A stretch of 46,128 nt of DNA from Lautropia sp. GTDB taxonomy: Bacteria > Pseudomonadota > Gammaproteobacteria > Burkholderiales > Burkholderiaceae_E. A program made the position numbers and the translations under genes. This document shows, in pieces, positions 9,321 through 13,405 of this stretch. The notes under the pieces are model-generated. The model saw only the letters and a list, made by a program, of their open reading frames with translations. It made no database searches and was not told the DNA's origin. The stretch's first letter is position 1. Every line of letters starts with the position of its first letter. The stretch spans positions 1-46,128 of the forward strand of contig JAUNLD010000017.1 in the NCBI GenBank assembly GCA_030532425.1, in the 5' to 3' direction.

Positions 9321-10121
9321 TCAGGTGCTGGACGCCTGCCGGCGCTGCTCAGCCTGGTTGCGTCCGGCCATGCAATACAGCCCCGCCACCATCAGCGCTC
9401 CGCCCAGTGCGTTGCCGATCCAGACCGCAACCATGTTGTGGGCGAAGGCGGCCCAGCCGATGTCGGCGCCGCCCCAGATGGCGGCCGGAATCACGAACAT
9501 GTTGGCCACGACGTGCTGAAAGCCGATCAGCACGAAGCTCATCACCGGAAACCAGATGCCGAGGATCTTGCCGCTGGTGCTGTCGGCGCTGTAGCACAGC
9601 CACACGCCCATGCCCACCAGCCAGTTGCAGCCGATGCCGGAGACCAGCGCCGGCCAGAAGGCGGCATCCACCTTGGCGTGCGCGGCCGCGATGGTCTTGG
9701 GCAGGTAATCGCCTTCGGTGAGGCCCGCCACGTGGCCAAAGGCCCAGGCCACGAACAGGGCGCCGGCCAGGTTGGCCAGGGTGATGATGAAGGCATTGTG
9801 CACAAGGGCCGCCAGCGGCAGGCGTCGCCTGAACCAGGCGGCTGGCAGCACCATCATGTTGCCGGTAATCAGCTCGCCCCCGCCGATCAGGATGCAGATC
9901 AGGCCGAGCGGAAAGACGGCCGAGCCCAGGAAGTGGCCCAGCCCGGCCAGTTCACCATGAAAGGTGGCGGCAATGCGCAGATAGGCCAGGTAGCCGACCG
10001 AGATGAAGGCGCCGCCCAGAAAGCCCAGCGAAAGCTGGGTGGCCCATGGCATCCGGGCCTTGTCGACCCCCTTGGTGACGGTGTTGTCGAGGATCTGCGA
10101 GGGTGCCAGCGGGGCTGCCAT
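9321..10121 (-). CDS. Formate/nitrite transporter (FNT) family channel
   Basis: 266 residues with six or so hydrophobic helices. The FNT signature GGELITGNMM (81-90) and the second half-site GFQHVVANMFVIP (200-212), with the central channel histidine at 203, are both intact, as is GCNWLVGMGVW. The protein should pass formate, nitrite or another small monovalent anion across the inner membrane; the sequence does not tell FocA from NirC or FdhC. No nitrite reductase or formate enzyme lies nearby. Before the AbiE insertion it would have followed cca directly; the duplicated cca tail now ends about 80 bases upstream of it. Confidence 0.92.
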   Translation of the reverse strand: MAAPLAPSQILDNTVTKGVDKARMPWATQLSLGFLGGAFISVGYLAYLRIAATFHGELAGLGHFLGSAVFPLGLICILIGGGELITGNMMVLPAAWFRRRLPLAALVHNAFIITLANLAGALFVAWAFGHVAGLTEGDYLPKTIAAAHAKVDAAFWPALVSGIGCNWLVGMGVWLCYSADSTSGKILGIWFPVMSFVLIGFQHVVANMFVIPAAIWGGADIGWAAFAHNMVAVWIGNALGGALMVAGLYCMAGRNQAEQRRQASST

Positions 10122-10204: not shown

Positions 10205-10352
10205 TCAGCGCCGTGTCAGGGTGTGGGAGATGGCCGCGTGGCGGGCGGCGTCGATGGCGTGACGGATGGCCTGGGGGTTGTGGGCGTGCTGGCCGGCGAT
10301 GGTGCCGGTGTCGACGGCCTGTGCAGCCGCCAGCGCCTGGCGGATGCGGGAG
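10205..10352 (-). repeat. Direct repeat copy 1: duplicated 3' end of cca
   Basis: This 148-base segment matches 12068-12215 in the same orientation at 145 of 148 positions. It begins exactly at the TGA stop of the cca frame (10205-10207) and extends into the last 48 codons. It ends 7 bases from the stop codon of the AbiEii gene. The two copies frame the AbiEi/AbiEii module. Confidence 0.97.
10205..10352 (-). pseudogene. Orphan 3' fragment of cca
   Basis: Read on the minus strand, the segment keeps the cca frame open from [16 protein letters not shown] through RHAAISHTLTRR to the stop. Compared with the intact gene it has one silent change and two replacements near the end (Thr to Ser, Ala to Thr). 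It has no start codon, so it is a non-functional tail, most simply the original end of cca displaced by insertion of the AbiE module. Confidence 0.85.
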
Positions 10353-10359
10353 GATTCGC

Positions 10360-11376
10360 TCAGACGGGCGTATTGAGTTGTTGTTCCAGCTGTGTGAGCG
10401 TGGTGATGATGTCGTCAAAGGGCAGGGTGGTGCCGTAAAACATGTGGGCGTCCAGCATGGCCTGGTAGTCGGCGCGTAAGGCCGTCAGCAGTGTGTCGCC
10501 CGGAATCAGGCGAAACTGGCCAGACAGGCAGTGCTGGTAATGGGTGTTGGCGCTGCGATAGAAGGTTTCCTTGATGCTGAGCACGTCATGCAGCAGCTGC
10601 CGGTTGGCCAGTGCTTGCTGGCCAATGGGATGTCGGGTGAGGCGGGCAAGATCGTACCAGTGGCGGGAGAGGCGATCGGCACCAGCGCGCAGGGCTGGCC
10701 GGTGGCATTCAACATGAATCAGCGTCGCTTTTTCCCAGAAGGTGCGTAGAGGAGAGAGCACGCAAACCTGGGCTGAAGGGAGGCTCAGTTGAGGGACAAG
10801 TGGGCTGATGTCAGGCTCGATGGTGATGAGGTCTTGTGGCAGGGTGGCGTTGCGGCCGCCAAATTCGATGAGAATGCTGCTGTGCAGGTAAGGGCTGGGC
10901 TGATCGACGGCACTGGGGTAATGGACCCGGAGTTTTTCTGCATCGTCGCTGAGCTCCAGCGTGACATCGGTGGCGGGCAGGTTCTTGCCGAGCGCGGTAT
11001 GCAGCGCGGGGAGCAGTTCGTCGCGGATGTGCGGGATCAGTGCTGCGCGAATCTGCCCGGACAGCTTCTTGCGTTGTGTGTTGGAAAGGGAGGCGAGGTC
11101 AGGCTCATGATCGAGCAGGCTGCGGTAGTCGATGGTGATGTCGATGTCTTCCGAGAAGCGTTCGATTGCCTGATGAACCTTGGACAGGGAGGTTCCGCCC
11201 TTGAAGGCCATGGGTTTGCGGTTGGGCAGCGCAAAGAGGGTCTGAAGTACCTGGCATAACCAGATGTCCTTTTCGAGGATCTGGGCACGCCGCCCAAGGT
11301 GGGTGGCCATGGCGTGCAGCACTTCTGCCTGTTCGGTGGGCGTGAGTGAGAACCAGGGTGGACGGGTCTCAGGCAT
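10360..11376 (-). CDS. AbiEii/AbiGii-family nucleotidyltransferase toxin
   Basis: 338 residues of the AbiEii (DUF1814-type) nucleotidyltransferase family. Motif I is KGGTSLSK (59-66) followed by FSEDIDI (74-80), the G-S/T plus D-x-D pair of the polymerase-beta fold; later motifs are FWEKATLIH (Lys216) and RHWYDLARL (239-246). Family members are toxins that use NTPs, and the mycobacterial MenT relatives add nucleotides to the 3' acceptor end of tRNA; whether this one does so is inference. The gene overlaps the antitoxin gene by 8 bases, implying translational coupling. Base composition is visibly less GC-rich than its neighbours, consistent with transfer. All core motifs are intact, so the toxin looks functional. 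Confidence 0.9.
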   Translation of the reverse strand: MPETRPPWFSLTPTEQAEVLHAMATHLGRRAQILEKDIWLCQVLQTLFALPNRKPMAFKGGTSLSKVHQAIERFSEDIDITIDYRSLLDHEPDLASLSNTQRKKLSGQIRAALIPHIRDELLPALHTALGKNLPATDVTLELSDDAEKLRVHYPSAVDQPSPYLHSSILIEFGGRNATLPQDLITIEPDISPLVPQLSLPSAQVCVLSPLRTFWEKATLIHVECHRPALRAGADRLSRHWYDLARLTRHPIGQQALANRQLLHDVLSIKETFYRSANTHYQHCLSGQFRLIPGDTLLTALRADYQAMLDAHMFYGTTLPFDDIITTLTQLEQQLNTPV

Positions 11377-11992
11377 GGGTGGGCAGGTGTTTTTCGTAGG
11401 CTGCCAGCGCCTGGGCCATCCAGCTGGGCATCAGGTGCTGGGCCTGGCGCAGGGCATCGAATTCGGTGCTGGAGAGCGTGTGGGCCAGATGGCGGAAAGT
11501 GTCGGCCGTGACATGCTGGCGACCCAGATACCACAGGGCCGAAAGCGCCTGACCCGCGGGGCGGCCGGCCAGTACCAGCTTGCGTGGCGCCGCGTGTTGC
11601 AGCCGGATGACGAGCTTGCCCAGCCGGATCTGGTGAGGGGAGCCACTGGTCTGGAAGATGGCATGCGCTGGAACCTGGGTACTGAGGCCCAGTCGATGGG
11701 CGGCTTCGGCTCCGTGGATGTCGATGCGTGCGCCTTCTGCCTGGGCAATGGCGTGGGCGATCTGCTCGGCAGAAGGCAGAACCTTGATGCCGAAGCGGTT
11801 GGTGTGTGGCACGGCGTAGAGACCGTGGGCAATCCGGTCGATATGACCGGCCTGCTTGAGCCTCATCAGCGCCTGGTCGATGGCAGCACGTGAGCCCAGT
11901 CCGGTGAAACGTGACGGACAGAAGGGTTGCCCAGGCGGCAGCAGGGCGAGCTGGGCGCGGATGGCTTGGGTGGTGTTGGCGTTGGCAGGCAT
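11369..11992 (-). CDS. AbiEi-type antitoxin / autorepressor (DUF6088-like)
   Basis: 207 residues, first gene of the pair. The N-terminal 65 residues look like a winged helix (FCPSRFTGLGSRAAIDQALMR... then AGHIDRIAHGLYAVP); the Gly-x-Tyr-x-x-Pro wing is typical of AbiEi and DUF6088 antitoxins. The C-terminal part contains the usual antitoxin segment with LVLAGRPAGQALSALWYLG. In this family the antitoxin represses its own operon by binding inverted repeats and neutralises the toxin without a stable complex (type IV). A perfect palindrome directly touches the start codon, which fits such autoregulation. No Shine-Dalgarno sequence can lie outside that palindrome, so the mRNA may be leaderless or nearly so. 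Confidence 0.85.
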   Translation of the reverse strand: MPANANTTQAIRAQLALLPPGQPFCPSRFTGLGSRAAIDQALMRLKQAGHIDRIAHGLYAVPHTNRFGIKVLPSAEQIAHAIAQAEGARIDIHGAEAAHRLGLSTQVPAHAIFQTSGSPHQIRLGKLVIRLQHAAPRKLVLAGRPAGQALSALWYLGRQHVTADTFRHLAHTLSSTEFDALRQAQHLMPSWMAQALAAYEKHLPTHA

Positions 11993-12025
11993 GATGTCAG
12001 ATATTTTATGTAAATATCTGACATC
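11993..12025 (-). promoter_or_regulatory. Palindromic operator/promoter of the AbiE operon
   Basis: GATGTCAGATATTT (11993-12006) and AAATATCTGACATC (12012-12025) form perfect 14-bp arms around a 5-base centre. The AT-rich centre includes TAAAAT on the minus strand, a good -10 candidate, and the palindrome ends at the base before the AbiEi ATG. A repressor bound here would cover both promoter and start codon. The -35 region is weak. Confidence 0.85.
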
Positions 12026-12067
12026 AGTGTAGTGCCGGGCTGATGACCGGACAGCGATCAGCTGGGC

Positions 12068-12215
12068 TCAGCGCCGTGTCAGGGCGTGGGTGATGGCCGC
12101 GTGGCGGGCGGCGTCGATGGCGTGACGGATGGCCTGGGGGTTGTGGGCGTGCTGGCCGGCGATGGTGCCGGTGTCGACGGCCTGCGCAGCCGCCAGCGCC
12201 TGGCGGATGCGGGAG
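12068..12215 (-). repeat. Direct repeat copy 2: 3' end of the intact cca gene
   Basis: This is the partner of 10205-10352, at an offset of exactly 1863 bases, with 3 mismatches. It forms the last 48 codons plus stop of the full cca gene. The 1715 bases between the copies hold only the AbiE promoter and two genes; no integrase or transposase is present. Confidence 0.97.
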
Positions 12216-13405
12216 AGGGTTTCATCGAGGCGGGTCTGGATGTTGTCGGGGCTGGTGTGGCTGGTGCGATCGGTGGGGGACGCGCCCGTGCCGATGCCGG
12301 CCAGGCGCCGTGCGGCCAGCAGCAGCTGTTCCAGCCGCTCGGGGCGGCGCCAGGCATCGTGGCGGTTGAAGAGCGCCAGCAGCGTGTCGGGTTGCAGGCG
12401 CTCGGGGGCGCTCAGCCACCGCCGGGCTGTCGTGGGCACGGGGCCGGGCATTTCGCTGGCCAGGCGGCGGGCGGCATCGAGGCAGTCGTTGGGCGCACGC
12501 AGGCGGCGGGCCAGCTGTTCGACGCGGGCGGCGGCTGGCTGGGGGGCGGTGTCAGGCGCAGGGCTGGGCCCGTCGTCGACGGCGCCGGCCAGCAGGATGG
12601 CAAAGCGGACAGGCAGTGGATCGTGCGCGGCGGCGCTGGCATCCAGTGCGGCCAGCCAGGCGGGGTGGCGGGCCACAGGTGAGAGCGGTGGCAGCAGGAT
12701 GGCCAGGGCGTGGCTGTCGTCCAGCACCTCCAGCATGCGCGAGGGCCGCTGGCTCATCAGCCCGCGCGAGATTTCCTGCCAGACGCGCTCGGCCACCAGG
12801 GCATCGACTTCGCCGGCGGCGCTCATCGCGCGCATCAGGGCCAGGGTTTCGTCAGCCACCGAAAAATCGGCAAAGCGCGCGGCAAAACGGGCCAGCCGCA
12901 GGATGCGCACCGGGTCCTCGCGGAAGGCGGGGCTGACGTGGCGGAAGATTCTTGCGCGCAGGTCGGGCAGGCCGCCAAAGGGATCGATGAGGCCGGGCAG
13001 CGGTGCGGTGGGCGCAGAACGTGTGGGTGATGACGTGGTGGATGCCGGTGCGGCCGTGGCAGGCGTGGCGCTCGCGCCAGCGGCCGGCACGGCCATTGCG
13101 TTGATGGTCAGGTCGCGGCGCAGCAGGTCGTCTTCCAGTGTCACATCCGGTGCAAAGTGCACGGCAAAGCCCTTGTAGCCGGGGCCGGTCTTGCGCTCGG
13201 TGCGCGCCAGCGCATATTCCTCGTGGGTGCGTGGGTGCAGGAACACCGGAAAATCCTTGCCCACCGGCTTGAAGCCCAGCGCGATCATCTGCCCGGGGGT
13301 GGCACCCACCACCACCCAGTCGTGGTCGCCGGCGGGCAGGCCCATCAGTTCATCGCGGACGGAACCGCCGACGCGAAAGCACTGCAAGGAAGAAACGGTC
13401 GTCAT
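12068..13405 (-). CDS. cca: CCA-adding enzyme (tRNA nucleotidyltransferase)
   Basis: Class II CCA-adding enzyme that builds the CCA 3' end of tRNA from CTP and ATP. The head domain has GGSVRD (13-18), the catalytic DHD (27-29, E. coli DRD), [19 protein letters not shown] and RRDLTINAM (96-104), then [18 protein letters not shown] and ERVWQE. Two oddities: a Thr/Ala/Ser/Pro-rich insert of about 30 residues (107-137) inside the NTase domain, and loss of the HD phosphohydrolase motif, since the expected CHDLGKG region reads LLAGAVDDG. The ATG at 13405 gives 445 residues; a TTG at 13423 is an alternative. The 3' 148 bases are duplicated beyond the AbiE genes downstream. Confidence 0.93.

Follow-up and report, generated by a model that had tools for sequence, protein, structure and literature searches.

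An AbiE toxin-antitoxin operon between two copies of the cca gene end in Lautropia: a probable case of a known kind of insertion, with a new cargo

How does a toxin-antitoxin (TA) operon come to lie between two copies of the end of cca, the gene of the CCA-adding enzyme? The question bears on how chromosomal TA genes move without a visible mobile element, and the islet described here is small, bounded to the base and in principle reversible. It lies in a window of 46,128 nucleotides (the whole stretch of DNA that was analysed) from a Lautropia MAG of 3.12 Mb in 125 contigs, 88.8% complete. On the minus strand the order is cca, 75 bp, AbiEi, AbiEii, 7 bp, a distal cca end, 83 bp and a formate/nitrite transporter gene (9321..10121, minus strand, PF01226 E 5.8e-70). 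The cca gene (12068..13405, minus strand) is open and encodes 445 aa; its protein, searched as residues 2-445, had its best NCBIfam match in the model of the CCA addition/repair protein with 392.5 bits, under the cut-off of 451. The top four named matches of this cca come from Lautropia.

The two copies form a direct repeat of 148 bp, at 10205-10352 and 12068-12215, identical at 145 of 148 positions, in register and 1863 bp apart from start to start. Read on the minus strand, each comprises the last 48 codons and the stop of cca: the proximal copy (12068..12215) lies within the whole gene, the distal one (10205..10352) is a truncated 3' end adjoining the transporter gene. One edge of the repeat is the cca stop, the other lies 7 bp from the AbiEii stop, and at the gene-internal edge the copies share an exact block of 30 bases. 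They differ from their partner bases at 10222, 10228 and 10322, with one silent change and two amino-acid changes (T/S, A/T). The next direct-repeat family in the surrounding 5 kb measured 34 bp (the longest among the 20 listed of 34), and chance is therefore not a serious option for the origin of the 148-bp repeat. Within the own assembly, cca-end copies were found in these two places only, with 40 of 190 first-look candidates scored.

The 1715 bp between the copies have a GC content of 61.7% compared to 66.4% for the window, a modest drop. They hold two genes, neither an integrase, and a search for tRNA and tmRNA genes across the window yielded none. Hallmarks of a transposon were not seen either: a 148-bp repeat with three mismatches is not a short exact duplication, no terminal inverted-repeat pair was listed, and the perfect 15-base inverted repeat present stands at the AbiEi start, not at the islet termini. 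When 1863 bp were removed by script, in two ways, cca stayed open at the same length. On all these points (the position and content of the repeats, the AbiE pair between them, the lower GC content, the repeat edge on the stop codon with the cca frame kept, the lack of an integrase and an intact cca after removal) the original prediction, made from the letters alone, was borne out.

Both genes of the islet could be assigned. AbiEii (10360..11376, minus strand, 338 aa) is a nucleotidyltransferase toxin (PF08843 E 1.8e-35; PADLOC AbiEii E 5.8e-98). AbiEi, the antitoxin and autoregulator (11369..11992, minus strand, 207 aa), lies upstream of it on the same strand with an overlap of 8 bases; its match to the Pfam AbiEi_4 model fell below the cut-off, and it was recognized as DUF6088 (PF19570 E 2.5e-30) and by PADLOC AbiEi (E 1.9e-62). 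A nucleotidyltransferase of the AbiEii family with an adjacent upstream AbiEi-type regulator assigns the pair to AbiE by sequence. The operon looks intact, since the family matches cover most of both proteins.

Is the islet an insertion? We searched nine genomes of the genus, the window's own included, so that the comparison is one at genus level. The transporter gene was present in three of the nine, the window's, G008 and G003. In G008 (apparently JAUMUG010000005.1) and G003 it directly follows cca, 115 and 306 bp past the stop; only one cca end is present and AbiE is missing from the site, so that empty sites, for which the original prediction had proposed to look, occur in congeners. Since the junction of cca and transporter gene is uninterrupted in both, the islet has the look of an insertion, and the distal copy, which stands where they have their own cca end, may be read as the resident cca terminus. 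At genus level, the two congeners thus show a single target copy without insert; for a target duplication, the defining comparison is one within a species. The spacers between cca and the transporter gene, 83 bp in the window, could not be aligned by eye with those of the two congeners.

The place after cca is variable within the genus. Frames inspected by eye gave a queC-like gene in G002 and G007 and pirin- and LysR-like genes in G005. AbiEii-like proteins occur in three of the nine genomes, the window's, G001 and G003; those of G001 and G003 are 38% and 36% identical and are not encoded on the cca contig. G004 gave no cca match, and in the eight stretches from the seven congeners that did, no second cca end was found; other cargo between cca-tail repeats, a further check proposed at the outset, did not turn up there. 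As a side observation, G006 has an MmeI-type restriction-modification gene after cca (L125 742-3837, assigned by Pfam), without a cca-end repeat. With AbiE in the window, two Lautropia thus carry defence genes after cca.

Our preferred reading, which we hold to be probable, is that a self-contained AbiE operon was inserted at the cca 3' end by integrase-independent recombination, with long target duplication. We infer this mechanism from the anatomy of the islet, the islet-free site in two congeners and the like anatomy at other genes described below. The incoming DNA would have carried a close relative's cca end with the AbiE operon behind it. Two routes of entry are conceivable: a circularised fragment may have integrated through one crossover inside the 148 bp, or one side may have been joined by homologous recombination within cca and the other by an illegitimate event, 148 bp ahead of the resident stop. 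Either route would yield an uninterrupted cca, then the cargo and last the resident cca end, now displaced. A gene of ComEC type, found in the window's genome and altogether in seven of the nine genomes, makes DNA uptake possible. A 148-bp repeat of 98% identity should let ordinary recombination lose the islet again and restore cca, and addiction to AbiE would select against such loss.

This kind of insertion has precedents. The term long target duplication was used for restriction-modification (RM) genes of H. pylori by Nobusato et al. 2000, as described in PMC1643837, and for some RM systems insertion is described as producing target duplications that are long, of the order of 100 bp, and variable (PMC3874152; likewise PMC3031569). 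RM systems have been likened to TA systems in addiction and apparent mobility, citing Nobusato et al. 2000 (PMC2654758). The likeness is close: an addictive defence module lies between long direct copies of its target (about 100 bp), without a mobility gene. The difference is that here the cargo is a type IV TA pair and the target the cca 3' end, and that the comparison was made within a genus. In the islet, too, long target copies stand at both ends and neither a transposase nor an integrase lies inside, and length and site vary among the like cases below. The idea that no element of this form had been described does therefore not hold for the kind: the islet looks like a known kind of insertion with new cargo, and its anatomy is not confined to this contig. 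In the open-licence literature we found no paper on an AbiE islet with direct repeats, on target duplication by a TA system or on cca as an integration site.

The crossover of a circularised fragment has an experimental counterpart. In E. coli, an experiment aimed at one-sided illegitimate insertion yielded something else in 56 of 60 clones, namely a lacZ duplication detected by PCR; it measured 109-950 bp in the 14 clones sequenced and was attributed to trimming and circularisation followed by one crossover (PMC3240628). The product has the anatomy of the islet, with part of a homologous gene duplicated around inserted DNA, although a laboratory plasmid in E. coli is compared with a natural islet. 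One-sided homology with an illegitimate join would yield the same anatomy. Homology-facilitated illegitimate recombination was proposed for the displacement of T6SS effector-immunity modules (PMC5361080). There, toxic cargo is likewise anchored by homology on one side and the old sequence pushed downstream, but whole immunity genes are kept, compared to 48 codons of a gene end here.

What addiction to AbiE can do is illustrated by two systems. The AbiE of Streptococcus agalactiae stabilised pUC19, which was lost to about 80% without AbiE and not at all with it (PMC3985639), and in S. suis an ICE is reportedly stabilised by AbiE together with a type II system (PMC11062541). The S. agalactiae system shares with the islet the AbiEi/AbiEii operon and palindromic repeats, which lie near the promoter there; it differs in that the AbiEi of the islet is of the DUF6088 type and that the islet is known from sequence.

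Does this anatomy recur at other AbiE loci? The sample comprised 98 loci (the window, 80 genome stretches and 17 viral contigs), which formed 95 groups after merging of near-identical ones; 83 had at least 600 bp on both sides. Six partial AbiEii rows (from four genomes) and one second gene piece, out of 50 other rows in one search, were left out, and two AbiEii places on one stretch of G830 were counted once. Direct repeats of at least 40 bp and at least 80% identity, within about 600 bp on each side of the pair, flanked six of the 98 loci: the window, L196, L205, L213, L233 and L239. The repeats involve gene ends or starts in four of them (cca, brnA and twice hsdR), a frame without assignment in one and a dispersed repeat in one. 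The repeat of L196 (133 bp, 89.5%) is a gene end from a gene that encodes the BrnA antitoxin domain (PF14384), and an HTH gene lies inside as well. In L205 and L213 it is the start of hsdR (PF04313), over 69 and 45 bp. The 291-bp repeat of L233 (94.5%) belongs to an open frame without Pfam match and is only perhaps a gene end, since the upstream part differs between the copies. The repeats of L173, L174 and L175 fell inside a wider limit of 3 kb and outside the tight one.

The arrangement at hsdR has its own features. AbiE lies just before hsdR in L205 (5135-7116) and L213 (6331-8102), and a duplicate of the start of hsdR remains upstream; in both loci the stop codon of AbiEii overlaps the beginning of hsdR. 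In L239 (5902-7853), AbiE is flanked by a palindromic dispersed repeat of the ATTTGGGGTCAGAGTAAAAA type, REP-like by eye, and not by a gene end.

For comparison, pseudo-pairs of equal length placed in the same AbiE loci had such repeats in 3 of 1772 placements, all three from one repeat. With cca as the centre none of 78 loci had tight repeats, and placements in cca loci gave 2 of 4851. Under the 3-kb limit the counts were 9/98 for AbiE vs 9/254 and 10/1318. Leaving out the window, 5/97 vs 3/1772 corresponded to p 2e-5. Against the cca-centred loci, 6/98 vs 0/78 gave p 0.03, 5/98 without L239 p 0.05, and 5/97 without the window again p 0.05; AbiE and HipA loci (see below) taken together, without the window and L239, gave p 0.06 at 6/137. 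All p values are rough, as control placements overlap and the 98 loci amount to 95 groups, and the contrast with cca-centred loci is marginal. Direct repeats around small insertions are in themselves nothing unusual: PMC2884548 reports them for 10-18% of small variable segments, counting repeats as short as 11 bp. It also counts against our preferred reading that none of the 12 plasmid loci, out of 399 AbiEii-matching records, had tight repeats, even at 25 bp, and that true one-sided illegitimate insertion was very rare in E. coli (PMC3240628). A within-species comparison in E. coli, with four AbiE operon queries, gave no match among 20,395 records.

The positions at which the copies differ carry a further hint. 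Differences fell on third codon positions in 9 of 14 instances in L196 and in 5 of 10 and 3 of 4 in the hsdR cases, together 17/28 (p 0.003, a pooling of L196, L205 and L213 chosen after the differences had been seen). The counts were 4 of 16 for L233 and 1 of 3 for the window, so that all five cases reach 22/47 (p 0.04). The excess in L196, L205 and L213 would fit two functional alleles that evolved separately, not fresh local copies; the three differences in the window do not discriminate between a donor and a local copy. The genes, the use of ends or starts, the lengths (45-291 bp) and the edges all differ between cases, which disfavors a single recombinase; taken with the third-position differences, this variety accords with incoming DNA that used a shared gene as its anchor for recombination.

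The anatomy is not specific to AbiE. Tight repeats flanked two of 40 HipA loci, L277 and L286 (40 of the first 49 rows, nine being skipped by choice; 34 of the 40 had at least 600 bp on both sides). At about one in twenty of the AbiE (6/98) and HipA (2/40) loci examined, such repeats provide a cheap signature for genome-wide searches. In L277 (4788-7096), the 116-bp repeats around HipBA correspond to a gene end, that of a small antitoxin-like gene (names given by eye), and one copy is joined in frame to a truncated RelE-like frame. L286 (G000:C10, 13100-24631; 4561-7930) is a second TA locus of the window's own genome. It starts with a mazG-like gene (PF12643), a PIN-domain gene (PF01850) with a neighboring frame without Pfam match, and a mazG start joined to a mazG-like end; then follow HipA (PF07804), a partial copy of the PIN gene, another mazG-like end and an oxidoreductase. 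This order is suggestive of stacked insertions. The corresponding 3.3-kb stretch of G006 has one mazG and the PIN-gene region in a different order, and the join in the window's genome, compared with G006, falls within a shared stretch of 17 bases. A further 20 stretches from this genome of the window (328 kb in all) contained no repeat of at least 45 bp at a spacing of 500-7000 bp. A 400-kb sample of G007 contained four repeat pairs which, by eye, bordered masked bases in one case, belonged to a transposase-like gene in another and to repetitive-looking proteins in two.

As a more general proposal, and a tentative one, TA operons may be self-mobile without a recombinase gene: fragments of an operon with a gene end would slot into the homologous gene end by host recombination and duplicate it, could stack at one gene (here mazG, the PIN-toxin region and HipA), could leave by way of the repeat, and would be held by addiction only.

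Three other explanations of the islet were weighed. The mazG/PIN locus, which in comparison with G006 resembles a permuted or tandem-duplicated unit joined at the 17-base shared stretch, lends something to a local rearrangement, by which AbiE landed after cca without a repeat, the cca end and AbiE were duplicated in tandem and the second AbiE was lost. However, this takes two steps instead of one: a second deletion would have had to stop exactly at the end of cca and leave an 83-bp spacer, which is by eye unlike the spacer on the AbiE side. We consider such a history unlikely.

Integrase-encoding islands integrate at tRNA genes and at some protein genes, and those that end in gene 3' ends leave the gene end whole, with a direct repeat at both ends, as here; their attachment sites resemble the cca-end repeat. 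The islet could be a small non-autonomous element of this kind, with its own cca end as attachment site and an integrase acting in trans. A repeat that ends at the stop codon, a gene left whole and the exact 30-base block at the gene-internal edge all agree with this, and in an assembly 89% complete an integrase could be missing. The islet differs from such islands in having no integrase among its two genes and in that no fixed site was found. The original prediction had taken the islet to target the end of cca in the manner of islands at tRNA genes. Yet its AbiE proteins had no match in the 88 stretches around cca, which represent about 83 distinct loci (four congeners were included twice, one in two halves), cca had none in the other 97 AbiE loci, and the seven congeners lacked a second cca end. 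Like anatomy occurred at unrelated genes, in two cases at the hsdR start, and no shared core or common edge was seen by eye among the five cases. Targeting of cca is thus not supported. The assembly has three tyrosine-recombinase matches; the only one in the window (PF00589, 29360-29872) lies behind a DUF484 gene and resembles XerC, with 332.9 bits just below the XerC cut-off of 335.15. Site-specific integration in trans appears improbable to us.

An assembly artefact, with the MAG joining a cca-AbiE strain to a cca-transporter strain, is conceivable at 125 contigs and 88.8% completeness, but the copies differ at three sites and other assemblies, although drafts too, have like anatomy, which makes it very improbable.

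A last observation concerns the start of the operon. A perfect 15-5-15 palindrome (11992..12026), found by repeat search, has the AbiEi start codon at its edge and is the probable operator of AbiEi; a promoter scan found no sigma-70-type site at this predicted operator. Of 20 other AbiE pairs examined, 12 have half-sites like those of the window in their upstream region, as GTCAGA/TCTGAC in five and as one-base variants (GTTAGA/TCTAAC, GTCCGA/TCGGAC) in seven. The best palindrome of the remaining eight was of a different kind or only partly alike. With 15 bases, the arms of the window's palindrome are longer than those of the 20 other pairs, where they reach at most 11.
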